15,339 nt of DNA. Origin: Candidatus Melainabacteria bacterium. GTDB taxonomy: Bacteria > Cyanobacteriota > Vampirovibrionia > Obscuribacterales > Obscuribacteraceae. This document shows positions 1-13,123 of this stretch, piece by piece (within the stretch, counting starts at the first letter, position 1; each line of letters starts with the position of its first letter). The DNA lies in assembly GCA_003151275.1 (NCBI GenBank), contig PLXC01000158.1:1-15339 (forward strand), written 5' to 3'. The notes beneath the pieces were generated by a model. That model did not search any database and had not been told where the DNA came from. It saw nothing but the letters and a program-made list of their open reading frames with translations. A program made the translations under genes and the position numbers.

Positions 1-1193
1 TGAAGAACCCTCCAGAGGCTCAGCGTATTCTTCTGGAAGCGCTTCAGGGTCGCCGCGTCCGCCTGCCTAACCCGCTTGGTGGCTCGGTTGGCTTCGACGG
101 CGTTGTGATCATCAACTCCAACGAGTCTGAATACAACAAGTTCGTCAACATCCGTGAGAATGAACCGTACCTCGACCGTTTTTACCGAATCTGGTTCCCT
201 TACCCGGTGGAGAAGTCGGCGGCTCGGCGCGTGATTGAGAAAATCTGGGGTTCATCGGAGTTTGCTAAGCCGGAGAGCGAAGGTGGTGTGCATGTCGACC
301 CTGACGTGTTCGACTACCTGGCTCAGCTGGAGATTCTCACTCGCATTGAGAAACACCCGTCTGTACCGATGAACATGAAAGTCGATGCCTACGATGGTCG
401 CGATCTGCGTGCCAAAGGCATGGGCATGAAGCTCACTGTGCACGATCTGCGCGATCAGGCGTCTGCTCGTGAGGGTCTTGAAGGGCAGTCTCCTCGTGAG
501 ACCGCCAAAATCATCAACTCTGTTGCCGCGGAGGTAAAAGGCAAAGGTAATACTGTAACCTCGCGCCTGATTCGCGAGCGTCTCAGAGAGTGGTTCAAGG
601 CTAATGTCGTCGACGAGAAAAAGCGTGATGCTCTTATGAGTCTGATCGCCAACGAACTCGACGAAATCCGCAACAAAACGCTGCGCGACATCGTGCTGCA
701 ATCGCTGATCGAGAGCTTCCCGTCCGAGTGCGAAGCAACCTGGCAGAAATACCTGGACAACATTCGCGCCTTTGCGCTTAACCAGAGTGTTAAGAGCCAG
801 GCTGGTTATGCTCGTGGTCCTGTTGGTGGTGACGAGACCTTCATGCGTGAGATCGAGACGGACCCGGATTGGGGCGTAACCCTGTCTGAGGCACCGAAGT
901 TCCGCGCTGAGATCCTGGCTGCTGTCAATCAGCATCTCACTGAGAAGCGCAGTGCTGTTGTGCCGTATTCCTGCCACGAGGCAGTGCGGCGTTGCATCGA
1001 GCGCTATGTCCTGAAGAAAGTACGTTCCGGCGCACGTTTGTTCAGTTCTTCCAACGCCCGTAACGACGAAGATAAGCGCAAGATCAATGATGCCAAAGAG
1101 CGCTTGATCAACCAGTATGGGTTCAGTGACTGGTCTGCTGAAGAGCTTTTGCGCGAAGCTGAGGAGAACTCGGACTTCCTCGTCGAGCGCTAA
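1..1193 (+). CDS. prkA: PrkA-family serine protein kinase, C-terminal part (5' end outside window)
   Basis: The reading frame is open from base 3, giving 396 visible residues, so this is the C-terminal portion of a protein that is about 640-690 residues in the family. The first residues (GRRVRLPNPLGG, then IINSNESEYNKF) match the end of the PrkA AAA-like domain. They are followed by the family signatures ENEPYLDRFYRIWFPYP and MKVDAYDGRDLRA. PrkA (E. coli YeaG) is a cytoplasmic AAA+ protein with Ser/Thr kinase activity, linked to nitrogen starvation and stationary phase in enterics and to sporulation in Bacillus. The P-loop half is not visible, so catalytic competence cannot be judged. The C-terminal 100 residues resemble a segment inside the next gene product (see findings). 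The gene ends with TAA, about 210 bases before yeaH, with an intrinsic terminator between them. Identity is secure; the function is inferred from homologues. Confidence 0.93.
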   Translation, partial: KNPPEAQRILLEALQGRRVRLPNPLGGSVGFDGVVIINSNESEYNKFVNIRENEPYLDRFYRIWFPYPVEKSAARRVIEKIWGSSEFAKPESEGGVHVDPDVFDYLAQLEILTRIEKHPSVPMNMKVDAYDGRDLRAKGMGMKLTVHDLRDQASAREGLEGQSPRETAKIINSVAAEVKGKGNTVTSRLIRERLREWFKANVVDEKKRDALMSLIANELDEIRNKTLRDIVLQSLIESFPSECEATWQKYLDNIRAFALNQSVKSQAGYARGPVGGDETFMREIETDPDWGVTLSEAPKFRAEILAAVNQHLTEKRSAVVPYSCHEAVRRCIERYVLKKVRSGARLFSSSNARNDEDKRKINDAKERLINQYGFSDWSAEELLREAEENSDFLVER

Positions 1194-1401: not shown

Positions 1402-2970
1402 ATGTCCAAAAGAAAGACCAACGTGGCAGCTGCAAATCGGTTCTTCACGCACATCGATCCTGATGTGCTGGAGCCGCCGATTATGGCTGACCGCAACGTA
1501 ATTCGACCGCCTCACACAGGCGGTGATCCAACCAAGCCCGACCGCGATCGCTACAAAGACCGTCAGAAGGGCAAAGCAAAAAAGAAAATCGGGGACATCA
1601 TTGGTGACAACCCGATCATCACCAAACCAGGCAAAATCAAGATCCCTGTCGAGCCTGACAAGGAGCCAATCTGGCGCTCTGGCCGCGACGGCAAGGGTGG
1701 TGGCGGCTCAGGCAAAGGCAAGGCAGGCGATCAGCCCGGTGACTACATTGAGGTGAGCTGGGAAGAATTCATCGAGATGTTCTTTGATTCCATAAATCTG
1801 CCGAACATGCTCAAAAAGATGTTCGCCCAGACAATGGTGAAAACCCAGAAGCGGCGCGGTGTTACCAAGGTTGGTCCACGCTCCCGCATGAGTAAACATG
1901 ACACTGCTATTGCTCGCATGAAGCGCGCTTCTGCCTTGCGCAACAGCCGGCCTGACGAGTTTGTCGATGACTTTGCCGCCAAGTGTCAGTCCGTCTTTGA
2001 GGCTTATGCTTTCTGGGCGGCAAGCCGCAGCGGTTTTGGCTCGATCTTGCCGGAACCGGTGATCTTCTTGATTGGCGACGAAGTGGATGAGTTTCTCAGC
2101 CAGGTCGAAAACGCCATCCCAAGCAACCTGGTTCAGGAGCCTGAGAAATATCGCCAGGCAATCCTCACTACTGTTAATGCCTATTTGGAGGAAAACGACA
2201 CCAATACTGCCCCATATACTCTGGAAGAAGAGCTTCGTCAGCGCATCGAAGCATATGTGTACGAGAAGGAGCGCCAGGGTGACTTGATCCCCTCAGCGTG
2301 GGAAGTGCCCTTCGCCAACTCAGACATGCGCTATAACCGCGTTGAAGAGAAGGAAGATCCAGACAGCAAAGCAATGGTCGGGCTCATTCTCGATCGCTCA
2401 GGCTCTATGTCAGGCGATCCGATCATCATTGCCAAGGCTTACTTCTTCATCTGTGTGCTCTTCCTCAAGACGAAGTACAAAAACGTGGCGATCGTGATGA
2501 TCTCCCACGATGCACAGGACTACTTGTGGAGAACGGAAGAAGAGTTTTTCAAGATTGGTGCCGGTGGTGGCACTGTTGCTGTTCCTGCCTGGGATCTTCT
2601 TTTGCGCATCGCCCAGACCGGCGCCACCTGCAAGCAGACTGGCGTTCAGGCTGGTCCTTATCCAGCCAGCGAGTGGAACAGATACATGTTCCATGCCACA
2701 GACGGTCAGCTTTTCGATGGTGACGACACAATCAGAGATTGGTGGACGAAGATCATTCGTGCTCCATTCAATTACGCCGGCTACCTCGAGATAGGCAACT
2801 CCTGGGGTGGGTGGGGTAGTAGCCGCGGTTGGGACATGGCTGGTGAGGCGCTTCTTGGTCTACCTGCCGATGTGAAGGCGCACGTGGGAATGGCTCAAGC
2901 CAAGTCTCTGGCTGACGTTCCTGAAGCATTCAAGCAGATCCTGGACAAGGATCGCCAGAAGGAGGCGTAA
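1402..2970 (+). CDS. yeaH: DUF444 (YeaH/YhbH) family protein with vWA-like domain and an extra PrkA-like insert
   Basis: The 522-residue protein has YeaH/YhbH landmarks in order. A basic N-terminus is followed by a Gly/Lys-rich linker (about 92-112), the segment EEFIEMFFDSINLPNML (121-137), VPFANSDMRYN (302-312), and a vWA-like core with the MIDAS-type motif DRSGSMSG (331-338). A later ATDGQLFDGDD probably supplies another metal-site Asp. The family is co-conserved with PrkA and SpoVR and induced under RpoS/starvation or sporulation control; its biochemical role is unknown. E. coli YeaH has about 427 residues and B. subtilis YhbH about 390. The excess lies between the LPNML and VPF landmarks, and residues 195-297 there resemble the PrkA C-terminal region. 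The stop is two bases before spoVR, whose ribosome site lies inside this gene's last codons, indicating translational coupling. Confidence 0.93.
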   Translation: MSKRKTNVAAANRFFTHIDPDVLEPPIMADRNVIRPPHTGGDPTKPDRDRYKDRQKGKAKKKIGDIIGDNPIITKPGKIKIPVEPDKEPIWRSGRDGKGGGGSGKGKAGDQPGDYIEVSWEEFIEMFFDSINLPNMLKKMFAQTMVKTQKRRGVTKVGPRSRMSKHDTAIARMKRASALRNSRPDEFVDDFAAKCQSVFEAYAFWAASRSGFGSILPEPVIFLIGDEVDEFLSQVENAIPSNLVQEPEKYRQAILTTVNAYLEENDTNTAPYTLEEELRQRIEAYVYEKERQGDLIPSAWEVPFANSDMRYNRVEEKEDPDSKAMVGLILDRSGSMSGDPIIIAKAYFFICVLFLKTKYKNVAIVMISHDAQDYLWRTEEEFFKIGAGGGTVAVPAWDLLLRIAQTGATCKQTGVQAGPYPASEWNRYMFHATDGQLFDGDDTIRDWWTKIIRAPFNYAGYLEIGNSWGGWGSSRGWDMAGEALLGLPADVKAHVGMAQAKSLADVPEAFKQILDKDRQKEA

Positions 2971-2972
2971 TT

Positions 2973-4751
2973 ATGTCCACAGATAATAAAACCAGCCAGG
3001 AAATGGCTGCTTTGATGATTTACGACAAGCGCATGCGCCTCGCCGGAGAGCGGCTTGGCCTGAAGCCTTACCTTGTCGATTACTGGTATATGCACGACGC
3101 GCAGATCATGCAGGTCTTGCCGTTTGTCGGTGTGCCAGGCGACTATCACTACTGGAATAAAGGCAAAGAGGCTGAGAAGAACAGGCAGGGCGGCTACGGT
3201 GGACACATCTATGAAATGGTGCTGAACACTAACCCGAGCATCTGCTACCTCTCAACCACCAACACTATTCCTATGCAGCTCCACGTCATGGCTCACGCCG
3301 TGTGGGGTCACGTGGACTTCTTCGCTAACAACAAACTGTTTGCTGAGACCCAGCCAACGACAGTGCTTGCCCGCTTCAAGCAAGCGCGCAACAAGCTCCA
3401 GACTTTGGTCGATAATCCGGAATGGGGCTGGCAGAACGTTGAGTACTACATGGATGCCATCCATGCCATCGAGAACTATGTTGGCTGGTTGCCCACTCTT
3501 GCTGGCAAACTGACAGACAAGCAGCTGCGCCAGGAGCTGAAGTTAGAATTGATGGACTTGAAGCGGCGCGCCAATACCGAAGGCGAGGTCTCTTCATCGC
3601 TGAAGCGTCAGCTTGAGACACAGATCTCTTTGATCGAATCTCAGCTTAAGCGCTACCCGATCCAACCCACCGATGACTTGCTCGGCTTTCTTGCCGATCC
3701 GGAGAACACACCAGATCTGCCTGAGGAAGTGCGGATGATGCTGGCAATTGTGCGCGATCGTTCGCGTTACTTTCAGCCTCAGGCGCGCACCAAATTCATG
3801 AACGAGGGCTGGGCATCATACTGGCAGAAGGATCTCCTCCTGCAGCCAGAGGTCGACTTGCCTATGGAATACCGCTTCGACCTGGCTCAAAGCTGGACGA
3901 TGCACGATCAGGTGGCAAGCGCCTGGTACCTCGATCCGTACGCTCTCGGTCAGGGTGTCTGGCGTTACATAGACCGCGAGTATGGCTATGACGAAGGAGA
4001 AGTGACGATCAAAGTGCCATTGCTCAAGAACGACAAAGATGGCAATCTGATTGAGAGTCGCAGCAGCAAGAAGGTGACAACAACCGTACGCAACCGAGAC
4101 AAAATGCTCGAAGTGCGGCGTCACTATGACGATAATCGCTTTCTGGAAGAATTCGTCAACGAGGAGTTCTTTGAATATGTCAACACGCAGGCCCTGGACT
4201 GGCTGCGTCGGGCTATCCGGTTGATCAACAGGACGCTGATTAATAACGGTTGGGATCGTGGTCTCACTTTCGAGCCCATTCCTCCTTCTCTGGAAGAGAT
4301 GATGCAGATCGTGCAAATCTGGATGCAGGTGCAGAAGACATCCGTTGCTTCTCGGCAGGAGACAGGCTCGCCTATCTTCCCTGTCTCAGAGCAGACCTTG
4401 CAGCAGATGGGCACTGTGCTTCAAATCGTCGCCGCTTTTGACGCCGACAAGAACAAGGCTCGTAAGCAGCTTGTTCTGCGCACTGGTTATCACTGGATGC
4501 CAAACATCCAGCTTGTCGATACCGGCAAATTTAGCGATAACTTGTGGACACTCAAACACGAGGTTGACGAAAACTTTGGACCGCTCATGCAGTCCGAGTG
4601 CAAGGACACCTTGAAGTTTTTCTGGCGCCTGCGCGGCACCTCATCGCCAGTGCGTCTTCTCACACTCGAGCCTAAGAAAGAAGATGGTCCGCTCGAGCCT
4701 TACGAGTATTACACCGAGGACGGCGAGAACGTCAAAGAGCGCTGGCTCTAA
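2973..4751 (+). CDS. spoVR: SpoVR/YcgB family protein
   Basis: The 592-residue protein matches SpoVR along its length. It shows YEMVLNTNPSICYL (80-93), the MQLHVMAHAVWGHVDFF block (101-117), DDLLGFL (234-240), YFQPQARTKFMNEGWASYW (266-284), LDPYALG, and the C-terminal PNIQLVD...LKHEVDENF...FFWRLRG...PVRLLTLEP region. SpoVR is needed for normal spore cortex in Bacillus and is a stationary-phase protein (YcgB) in E. coli; the mechanism is unknown. Two oddities stand out. The usual MNEGWAxxxH motif ends in Gln (Q285) here instead of His. The protein is also longer than E. coli YcgB (about 510), apparently with extra sequence near residues 420-495. The AAGGAGG ribosome site lies at the end of yeaH and the two genes form one operon closed by the terminator at 4775. 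Confidence 0.94.
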   Translation: MSTDNKTSQEMAALMIYDKRMRLAGERLGLKPYLVDYWYMHDAQIMQVLPFVGVPGDYHYWNKGKEAEKNRQGGYGGHIYEMVLNTNPSICYLSTTNTIPMQLHVMAHAVWGHVDFFANNKLFAETQPTTVLARFKQARNKLQTLVDNPEWGWQNVEYYMDAIHAIENYVGWLPTLAGKLTDKQLRQELKLELMDLKRRANTEGEVSSSLKRQLETQISLIESQLKRYPIQPTDDLLGFLADPENTPDLPEEVRMMLAIVRDRSRYFQPQARTKFMNEGWASYWQKDLLLQPEVDLPMEYRFDLAQSWTMHDQVASAWYLDPYALGQGVWRYIDREYGYDEGEVTIKVPLLKNDKDGNLIESRSSKKVTTTVRNRDKMLEVRRHYDDNRFLEEFVNEEFFEYVNTQALDWLRRAIRLINRTLINNGWDRGLTFEPIPPSLEEMMQIVQIWMQVQKTSVASRQETGSPIFPVSEQTLQQMGTVLQIVAAFDADKNKARKQLVLRTGYHWMPNIQLVDTGKFSDNLWTLKHEVDENFGPLMQSECKDTLKFFWRLRGTSSPVRLLTLEPKKEDGPLEPYEYYTEDGENVKERWL

Positions 4752-4774: not shown

Positions 4775-4807
4775 GAGGGCTTGTCTTCGGGCAAGCCCTC
4801 CTCTTTT
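4775..4807 (+). terminator. Intrinsic terminator after spoVR with C(UUCG)G tetraloop
   Basis: GAGGGCTTG pairs with CAAGCCCTC (4775-4783 with 4792-4800), extended inward by T-G and C-G pairs to the extra-stable loop C(TTCG)G, and followed by CTCTTTT (4801-4807). This is a textbook rho-independent terminator for yeaH-spoVR. It ends only four bases before the AGGAG of the next gene. Confidence 0.93.
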
Positions 4808-5498: not shown

Positions 5499-5918
5499 AT
5501 GTTATGCAACCGCTGTCAGCAGACGCTTGTCGTTGCCGGCGAGTGCAAGAATTGTGGTGGCGTTTATCTGACCAAGGTTCGTGAAGCCACAGACCTCCAC
5601 GAGACATTCAAGGGGTTGCGTGCAGGCGAAGAGATCCACATTGAAATGAATGAGGATCAATATTCCGGCAAGCAGTGGGAAGTGACAAAACCACTGCACA
5701 CCAGCTTCCGCCTCAAGCTGAAGGGACCGTTTGTTCAGAACCCACAAGACGGACAGTACGGCACTCGCACTTTTGTATTCGAAGTCGTTGGCTCTGGCTC
5801 AGGCAACATCGAGTTGCATGAAGTGCAGCGGGTCTGGAGTTGGTTTAGCACCATCTCCAGCTCGACTGCGCCAGTTGTCGGCGGCAAGCAGTTTAACTGT
5901 GTGTTTCAAATTAAGTAA
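5499..5918 (+). CDS. Zinc-ribbon protein with chagasin-like (I42) C-terminal domain
   Basis: The 139-residue product starts with a four-Cys zinc ribbon, CxxC-x9-CxxC (C3, C6, C16, C19). Residues about 38-138 follow the layout of chagasin-type peptidase inhibitors (MEROPS I42). LRAGEEIHIEM stands where the family has its vxxGexxxixL strand, DQYSGKQW (53-60) stands for the NPTTGYxW loop, GTRTFVFEVVGSGSGNIEL (88-106) stands for the Gly-rich loop and strand, and QRVW (110-113) stands for the RPW motif. Chagasins inhibit papain-like cysteine peptidases. Here the NPTTGY loop is only loosely kept, so inhibitory activity is uncertain. No signal peptide is seen, implying a cytoplasmic location. The start is supported by GAGGAGG (5486-5492). 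The gene forms a likely operon with 4822-5484. The zinc ribbon is clear; the chagasin-like assignment is by pattern only. Confidence 0.75.
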   Translation: MLCNRCQQTLVVAGECKNCGGVYLTKVREATDLHETFKGLRAGEEIHIEMNEDQYSGKQWEVTKPLHTSFRLKLKGPFVQNPQDGQYGTRTFVFEVVGSGSGNIELHEVQRVWSWFSTISSSTAPVVGGKQFNCVFQIK

Positions 5919-12565: not shown

Positions 12566-13090
12566 GCCAATAACAAGTTTCCCAAGGACCTACTAGAGTT
12601 CGCTAATCGATTCGGAACAAAAGAACAATGCGAGGCGATGTTAGAAAAGATAAGATGGCCCAAGGGTTTTACTTGCCCGAATTGCGGTCACGACGACGGT
12701 TACAAATTGAATGGGCGACGTCAAATCCAGTGCGCTCTCTGCCGTCATCAGTCTTCGTTGACTTCGGGCACCATTTTTCACAGAACACATTTGCCGCTTA
12801 CAGTTTGGTTTTGGGTCATCTACCAACTCGCGCAAGACAAATGCGGTACTTCTGCGACTCGCTTGGCCAGCCAATTGAACAGACCTTACAAAACCATGTG
12901 GCATGTTCTACACAAGCTCAGATACGCCATGCGAGCCAGAGACCAAGGCATTACTCTTGCAGGATTAAATCGAACTTGATGAAGCGGTTTTGGGTCCAGA
13001 AGCACGGCGTCCATCAAACGCGGATGATGAGTCTAGAAAAAATATCGTGGGTGGTAGACTATTGTGTTGCGAGGGAGGTCTGGGCGGACA
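12566..13090 (+). pseudogene. IS1595-family transposase remnant, frameshifted and truncated
   Basis: Translation from 12566 (no start codon before the ATG at 12638) gives the IS1595 N-terminus: FPKDLLEFANRFGTKEQCEAMLEKIRWPKGF, then a zinc ribbon CPNC...CALC (C13, C16, C32, C35 counted from 12638), SLTSGTIFHRTHLPLTVWFW, and a helix-turn-helix-like YKTMWHVLHKLR. The frame stops at 12979. Removing one A from the AAA at 12967-12969 restores GLIELDEAVLG, whose Asp is the first residue of the DDE triad, and continues as PEARRPSNADDESRKN in the other frame. Recognisable sequence fades by about 13060-13090, so the second Asp and the Glu are missing. The family is normally near 300 residues. The element is inactive. 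The end given is approximate, and no right inverted repeat was found. Confidence 0.82.
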
Positions 13091-13123
13091 GGATTTTACT
13101 GACCGTGCCATGATGAAGTTCTC

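Follow-up and report, generated by a model that had tools for sequence, protein, structure and literature searches.

Genes for PrkA, a DUF444 (YeaH/YhbH) protein and SpoVR are already known to be paired, also with two PrkA genes, as in haloarchaea, where two PrkA genes stand next to each other in a cluster that also has DUF444 and SpoVR genes (available excerpt of PMC3102087). In E. coli, PrkA and YeaH share a starvation phenotype, and YeaG, the PrkA of that species, is treated as a kinase (excerpt of PMC4664914); a Bacillus PrkA is reported to have negligible kinase and protease activity in vitro (excerpt of PMC13001217). Two pairs of an AAA+ protein with a VWA protein are described in similarly partial sources: ChlI and ChlD each carry an AAA+ domain, by which they associate (PMC6604950); the NorQ-NorD contact involves a VWA finger, the C-terminus of NorD and an N-terminal domain (PMC13036017). 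Here we describe a stretch of 15,339 nucleotides (the window) from a Candidatus Melainabacteria bacterium, a member of a group of cyanobacterial relatives that do not photosynthesise. Its YeaH, a probable working partner of the ATP-driven stress protein PrkA, contains a four-helix domain copied from the PrkA C-terminus and since diverged. The copy, YeaH residues 187-296, lies between the N-terminal part of YeaH and its VWA domain.

This duplication of a PrkA domain into YeaH is real and apparently undescribed, and its function we infer. Full-text searches of open-access papers gave no description of a DUF444 protein that contains a PrkA domain, and Pfam annotates these YeaH proteins as DUF444 only. 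An initial annotation, made from the letters of the window, had proposed the copy and had also called PrkA a kinase; the latter is doubtful, as the Bacillus protein (PMC13001217) speaks against it and the E. coli protein (PMC4664914) for it. The features concerned are the following.

3..1193, plus strand: prkA2, coding for the C-terminal 396 residues of a protein of about 730 (PF06798 and PF08298 above their cut-offs; full-length relatives)
702..1049, plus strand: the C-terminal helical domain of PrkA, residues 234-349 of 396, to which the insert is homologous (HHalign, predicted helices)
1402..2970, plus strand: yeaH, a DUF444/VWA protein of 522 amino acids (open reading frame; PF04285 at 182.1 bits against a gathering cut-off of 27, only DUF444 being over cut-off)
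1960..2289, plus strand: the PrkA-derived insert, YeaH residues 187-296 (PrkA-domain hidden Markov model (HMM), expectation value (E) 2.7e-12; HHalign; AlphaFold2)
2305..2961, plus strand: VWA domain of YeaH with its metal ion-dependent adhesion site (MIDAS), immediately 3' of the insert (structural matches to VWA domains, invariant residues)
2973..4751, plus strand: spoVR, the third cluster gene within the window (PF04293, 211.9 bits)

The prkA frame is open at the window edge, so prkA2 is cut by the start of the window. The GTG at 105, from which PrkA residues had been counted, is not the start, given the open frame and the length of close relatives (about 730 amino acids). A second, tandem PrkA gene (prkA1) was found upstream of prkA2 in most examined loci, for example at G001:C309:7145-8092; the window, which starts within prkA2, does not reach it.

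Homology of the YeaH insert to the PrkA C-terminal domain

The starting point was an ungapped match of YeaH residues 244-293 (bases 2131-2280) to PrkA residues 260-309 counted from the GTG at 105 (bases 882-1031), with 20 of 50 residues identical, which we found to be exact. Smith-Waterman alignment of the whole YeaH against the whole PrkA product gave a score of 107. No shuffle equalled this score: with 2000 trials each, full shuffling gave at most 78 and local shuffling within 20-residue blocks at most 81. At the DNA level the two 150-base stretches are identical at 74 of 150 positions, indicating an old copy and not a recent duplication.

We used profile methods to confirm the relationship. 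Comparison of the YeaH segment with PrkA profiles had been set beforehand as one of two tests that could refute homology, the other being a comparison of structural models, and it gave a significant match. An HMM of the PrkA C-terminal region (32 PrkA proteins, built without P0097 and P0099) matched 66 of 113 YeaH-family proteins at E <1e-4, the frame-shifted P0078 having been dropped from the set. The window YeaH was matched over residues 187-296, so the similarity does extend upstream of the 50-residue match as had been supposed, with its limit moved from residue 195 to residue 187. Among the other 47 YeaH proteins, P0063 gave E 0.0065 and three insert-free proteins (P0087, P0088, P0090) E of about 2; the rest had no listed match to the PrkA profile with E of 10 or below. 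When 64 insert sequences were compared with the PrkA family by HHalign, 115 columns aligned with a probability of 98.9% (E 2.7e-17). The controls, in which PrkA was compared with the YeaH N-terminal part, the YeaH VWA part, SpoVR and an unrelated insert from another YeaH clade (type II, see below), all gave 0.9% or less.

In the reverse search, the insert profile retrieved 77 of the 81 PrkA2 proteins with E no higher than 1e-3 and residues 491-590 of E. coli YeaG (E 1.1e-4); E. coli YeaH was not significantly matched (E 16). Whole genomes were searched in the order (53), class (194) and phylum (194) of G001, a Melainabacteria assembly, and protein searches scored roughly 8000 candidates sharing most words. 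In the 194 genomes of the class, the window YeaH matched 14 PrkA frames in 13 genomes through its insert, with E down to 7.1e-9. The Pfam PrkA model (PF06798) gave no match to the YeaH of the window with E of 10 or below, which leaves the protein outside that Pfam family, and matched 14 of 79 YeaH-family members at E up to 1 (best 3e-5). A domain profile built from PrkA and insert segments together (A4) retrieved 15 PrkA2 frames, 9 YeaH inserts and 2 PrkA1 frames from 14 genomes at E up to 0.01, and nothing beyond PrkA and YeaH. Because A4 contains both segment types, searches with it, in these genomes and in solved structures, are not independent tests of homology.

A chance or convergent likeness of helical segments, without common descent, would fit the helical nature of both segments and the failure of the Pfam model to detect the window YeaH. 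It was rejected on the shuffles, the family-wide match to the PrkA-domain profile, the HHalign result with its negative controls and the reverse search that reached E. coli YeaG, and we consider it extremely improbable.

Separate AlphaFold2 models were made of YeaH (79 sequences, mean predicted local distance difference test score (pLDDT) 78.3) and of a full-length PrkA, P0107 (50 sequences, mean pLDDT 87.2), in which residue numbers equal those of the window PrkA plus 334. Insert residues 191-290 had block pLDDT values of 79-97 and were predicted to form helices 191-209, 218-236, 247-265 and 276-291; the helices predicted in the PrkA domain were 573-592, 612-619, 631-649 and 660-677. By the sequence alignment, YeaH helices 191-209, 247-265 and 276-291 map within two residues onto P0107 573-592, 631-649 and 660-677, and YeaH 218-236 has only its end in common with P0107 612-619. 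In the two models the predicted helices are thus in register for three of four, as a shared fold would predict. The last two PrkA helices (P0107 689-706 and 710-722) fall outside the aligned part, so the insert is a copy of the four-helix part and not, as first thought, of the whole PrkA C-terminus. The profile comparisons and the agreement of separately predicted helices together bear out homology of the segment to the PrkA C-terminal domain.

The same models supported the assignment of the flanking parts. YeaH has a VWA fold with conserved MIDAS-type residues: structural matches to VWA domains cover model residues about 320-521, and D331, S333, S335, T391 and D434, which we take to be of the MIDAS type, are invariant in 79 aligned proteins. 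The PrkA N-terminal AAA+ domain resembles, among others, NorQ, and the structural search with the PrkA model listed NorQ chains. Fold searches with the YeaH and PrkA models listed VWA domains and AAA+ proteins; insert residues were barely covered by these matches, which makes the searches uninformative on the insert. A solved PrkA relative, 9xip (692 amino acids, 30 chains in 3 entries), was found by sequence and was absent from the fold matches shown. Its residues 545-644 matched profile A4 (E 6e-9), and a second mixed profile (A2) found no PrkA among solved structures at E up to 1.

Distribution and origin of the insert

In the order of G001, 21 of 53 genomes had a match to the window YeaH, and 10 of these 21 carry the insert. 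prkA adjoins yeaH in all 23 fetched loci and spoVR comes next in 21 of them, the remaining two stretches ending early. The region bounded by YeaH residues 180 and 303 is 124 residues long in the window and about 20-34 in close relatives without the insert, which bears out the view of the segment as an insert. E. coli YeaH is indeed shorter between the LPNL and VPF landmarks (88 vs 165 residues), the difference being 77; four insert-free relatives have 63, 63, 63 and 71 residues there. An assembly artefact was ruled out, since 10 genomes carry the insert in unbroken frames and many other proteins in the database have it too. A second prkA-yeaH-spoVR cluster is present in the genome of locus L001 (L064, G001:C129), and its YeaH is without insert.

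A tree of 105 YeaH proteins was computed with the insert left out of the alignment; P0056, P0081, P0028, P0036, P0039, L063y, L069y and P0013 were omitted as fragments or near-duplicates. The PrkA-derived insert (type I) was found in 59 rows, counting P0063 in spite of its PrkA HMM E of 0.0065, a different insert (type II) in 8 rows (P0069, P0072-P0077 and L077:3038-4657, or L077y; two of the eight are longer) and no insert in 38. Three changes explain all states. Type II forms one clade (support 100*), and type I is present in 59 of the 60 rows of its own clade. Most simply, the PrkA-derived insert was gained once, in an ancestor of one clade of the order, and lost in one known relative. P0136, a close PrkA, may be the neighbour of P0049, the one row of this clade without insert, by an inferred pairing. 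That the type II insert is another PrkA copy was ruled out, as profiles of PrkA1, PrkA2 and SpoVR gave no match to it; its sole signal against the type I family lies in the last 31 columns (probability 28.9%).

To which PrkA the insert is closest was clear from HHalign, with E 7.3e-20 for PrkA2 and E 3.3e-7 for PrkA1 (20 frames from 20 fetched stretches, L094-L113). PrkA1 is accordingly disfavoured as donor. In trees of the domain, the inserts form one clade (100* in the first tree, 100/100* in the second) and, in the second, group with the PrkA2 proteins of the order (96/89*). For the first of these trees 37 insert rows were chosen, and P0097, P0098, P0099, L063p, L069p and L071p were left out. 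The trees lead us to infer an origin of the insert in the prkA2 lineage. As prkA2 directly precedes yeaH, duplication within the cluster, as originally proposed, is the simplest explanation. A clade of all PrkA2 without the inserts was not rejected by the approximately unbiased test (p-AU 0.151) and the insert stem is long (1.82), so the direct donor among PrkA2 proteins is not fixed. These two values would also suit a gain of the domain by both genes from a third, mobile source instead of transfer from prkA2 to yeaH. Such a source is very unlikely, as the domain belongs to the long-standing PrkA family, including E. coli YeaG, and matched nothing but PrkA and YeaH in 14 genomes.

Constraint and possible roles of the insert

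The insert is under purifying selection, yet changes faster than the VWA domain. In five locus pairs, its nonsynonymous divergence (dN) was 0.066-0.423 compared with 0.009-0.136 for the VWA part, which is 3.1 to 7.3 times more, and dN was below the synonymous divergence (dS) in all four pairs with computable dS. Positions conserved in both the insert and PrkA are, in window YeaH numbering, F191, C195, Q196, Y202, F231, E236, Y250 (F in most), R251, P271, Y272, I282, E283 and V286, and are likely to be mainly core.

PrkA and YeaH are widely found side by side, and the natural occurrence in YeaH of a domain copied from PrkA gives an evolutionary clue to how the two may be in contact. By analogy with ChlI/ChlD, the best explanation, which we put at a probability of about 0.5, is that the insert docks YeaH on PrkA. 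YeaH would act as VWA co-factor to an AAA+ assembly of PrkA; through the copied domain it would join a contact normally made by the PrkA C-terminal domain, whether from one PrkA subunit to another or from PrkA1 to PrkA2. YeaH would thus be docked on the AAA+ ring by mimicking a subunit, as ChlD is bound to ChlI via the common AAA+ domain. In a bolder version, unlikely on present evidence, the insert replaces one PrkA C-terminal domain in a mixed PrkA1/PrkA2/YeaH assembly. Were such a hybrid subunit real, the VWA co-factor would be built into the AAA+ machine, it would add to ChlI/ChlD a second, independent example of a VWA partner recruited by duplication of a domain from its AAA+ motor, and it would indicate the docking site of ordinary PrkA-YeaH pairs.

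Several observations weigh against docking. The insert had a mean pairwise identity of 0.386, below the values of the VWA part (0.632) and the PrkA domain (0.586). Many residues conserved in PrkA are altered in the insert, for example D252, P288, E303, H325, C331, R334 and R345 (window PrkA numbering), and in most inserts PrkA E242 and D252 correspond to K194 and F204. Contacts that need such residues are therefore not imitated by the insert; with the shared core kept, its fold is probably retained and its surface has diverged. Divergence of the insert was correlated with that of PrkA given the VWA part (partial r 0.216, p 0.005; 25 pairs, with 17 of the 25 YeaH-PrkA pairings inferred). The AAA end (0.184) and the middle part (0.214) of PrkA correlated alike, so that the co-divergence is unspecific to the homologous domain. 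Helix 2 has 19 residues in the insert and 8 in PrkA. P0049, which lies inside the type I clade, lacks the insert and sits on a long branch (0.7), and the fork uniting type I has only 81 by the Shimodaira-Hasegawa-like approximate likelihood ratio test (SH-aLRT), its two halves having 100* each. Finally, the type II insert, unrelated and of about 100 residues, sits at the same YeaH site in another clade. The matched docking or dimer interface suggested by the initial annotation is accordingly no more than plausible: mainly core is kept, change is faster than in the other parts of either partner, co-divergence is unspecific and an unrelated insert sits at the same place.

Much of this would also fit a PrkA-homologous insert that is now a folded spacer or stabiliser between the YeaH halves, making no specific contact with PrkA. 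The single gain of type II at the same site (8 rows), the rapid evolution of the insert, its one loss (P0049) and the unspecific co-divergence all speak for a spacer. A mere spacer does not, however, need a partner gene as its source, and the insert was kept in 59 of 60 clade rows with the PrkA fold-core positions (F, CQ, Y, F, E, FR, PY, IE, V), which makes this role possible but rather improbable. It is more doubtful still that SpoVR or a client protein is a third partner, for which the insert competes with the PrkA C-terminal domain or takes its place, YeaH acting as decoy or adaptor rather than as a PrkA ligand. Such a role would be consistent with the confinement of the domain to this gene cluster in the genomes searched and with spoVR following in 21 of 23 fetched loci, but no partner of the PrkA C-terminal domain emerged in this analysis. 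Docking of YeaH on PrkA thus remains our preferred explanation, and the copy pinpoints a 110-residue piece as candidate contact element.

Other features of the window and comparison with known systems

The gap between prkA2 and yeaH (1194-1401) had an RNA folding z-score of -5.3, with none of 200 shuffles as good, and a terminator-like hairpin with a T run lies at about 1286-1336, where the terminator scan listed none; no Rfam family matched in the window. A strong terminator-like hairpin of 11 pairs at 4775-4800, directly 3' of spoVR, is probably the end of the cluster transcript. The small protein encoded at 5499-5918 begins with CxxC pairs and has a peptidase inhibitor domain of the chagasin type (I42). 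Overlapping frames at 12628-13113, one with an IS1595-type transposase zinc ribbon (PF12760), look like a broken insertion element.

The window YeaH agrees with the DUF444/YeaH/YhbH family (PF04285) in the match over the whole protein, the VWA part, the MIDAS-like residues and the place beside prkA and spoVR. It differs by some 100 extra residues before the VWA domain, which are absent from E. coli YeaH and the 38 insert-free rows. The PrkA/YeaG C-terminal domain (PF06798) has in common with the insert the profile homology over 115 columns and the agreeing predicted helices, but the insert sits in a VWA protein and is without the last two PrkA helices and many PrkA-conserved residues. The haloarchaeal cluster has paired PrkA genes as well, and the excerpt of PMC3102087 mentions no insert.

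NorQ/NorD, a MoxR AAA+ protein with a VWA partner, is likewise an AAA+ plus VWA pair; the contact described in the available part of PMC13036017 is not made through a copied domain. In magnesium chelatase (ChlI/ChlD), as here, the VWA protein and its AAA+ partner have a domain in common. For ChlI and ChlD this is the AAA+ domain itself, whereas the YeaH insert matches the PrkA C-terminal helices and not the AAA part, and association through it is a proposal by analogy. If the copy does dock YeaH on PrkA, it would repeat the ChlI/ChlD solution and support PrkA-YeaH as an AAA+/VWA machine.
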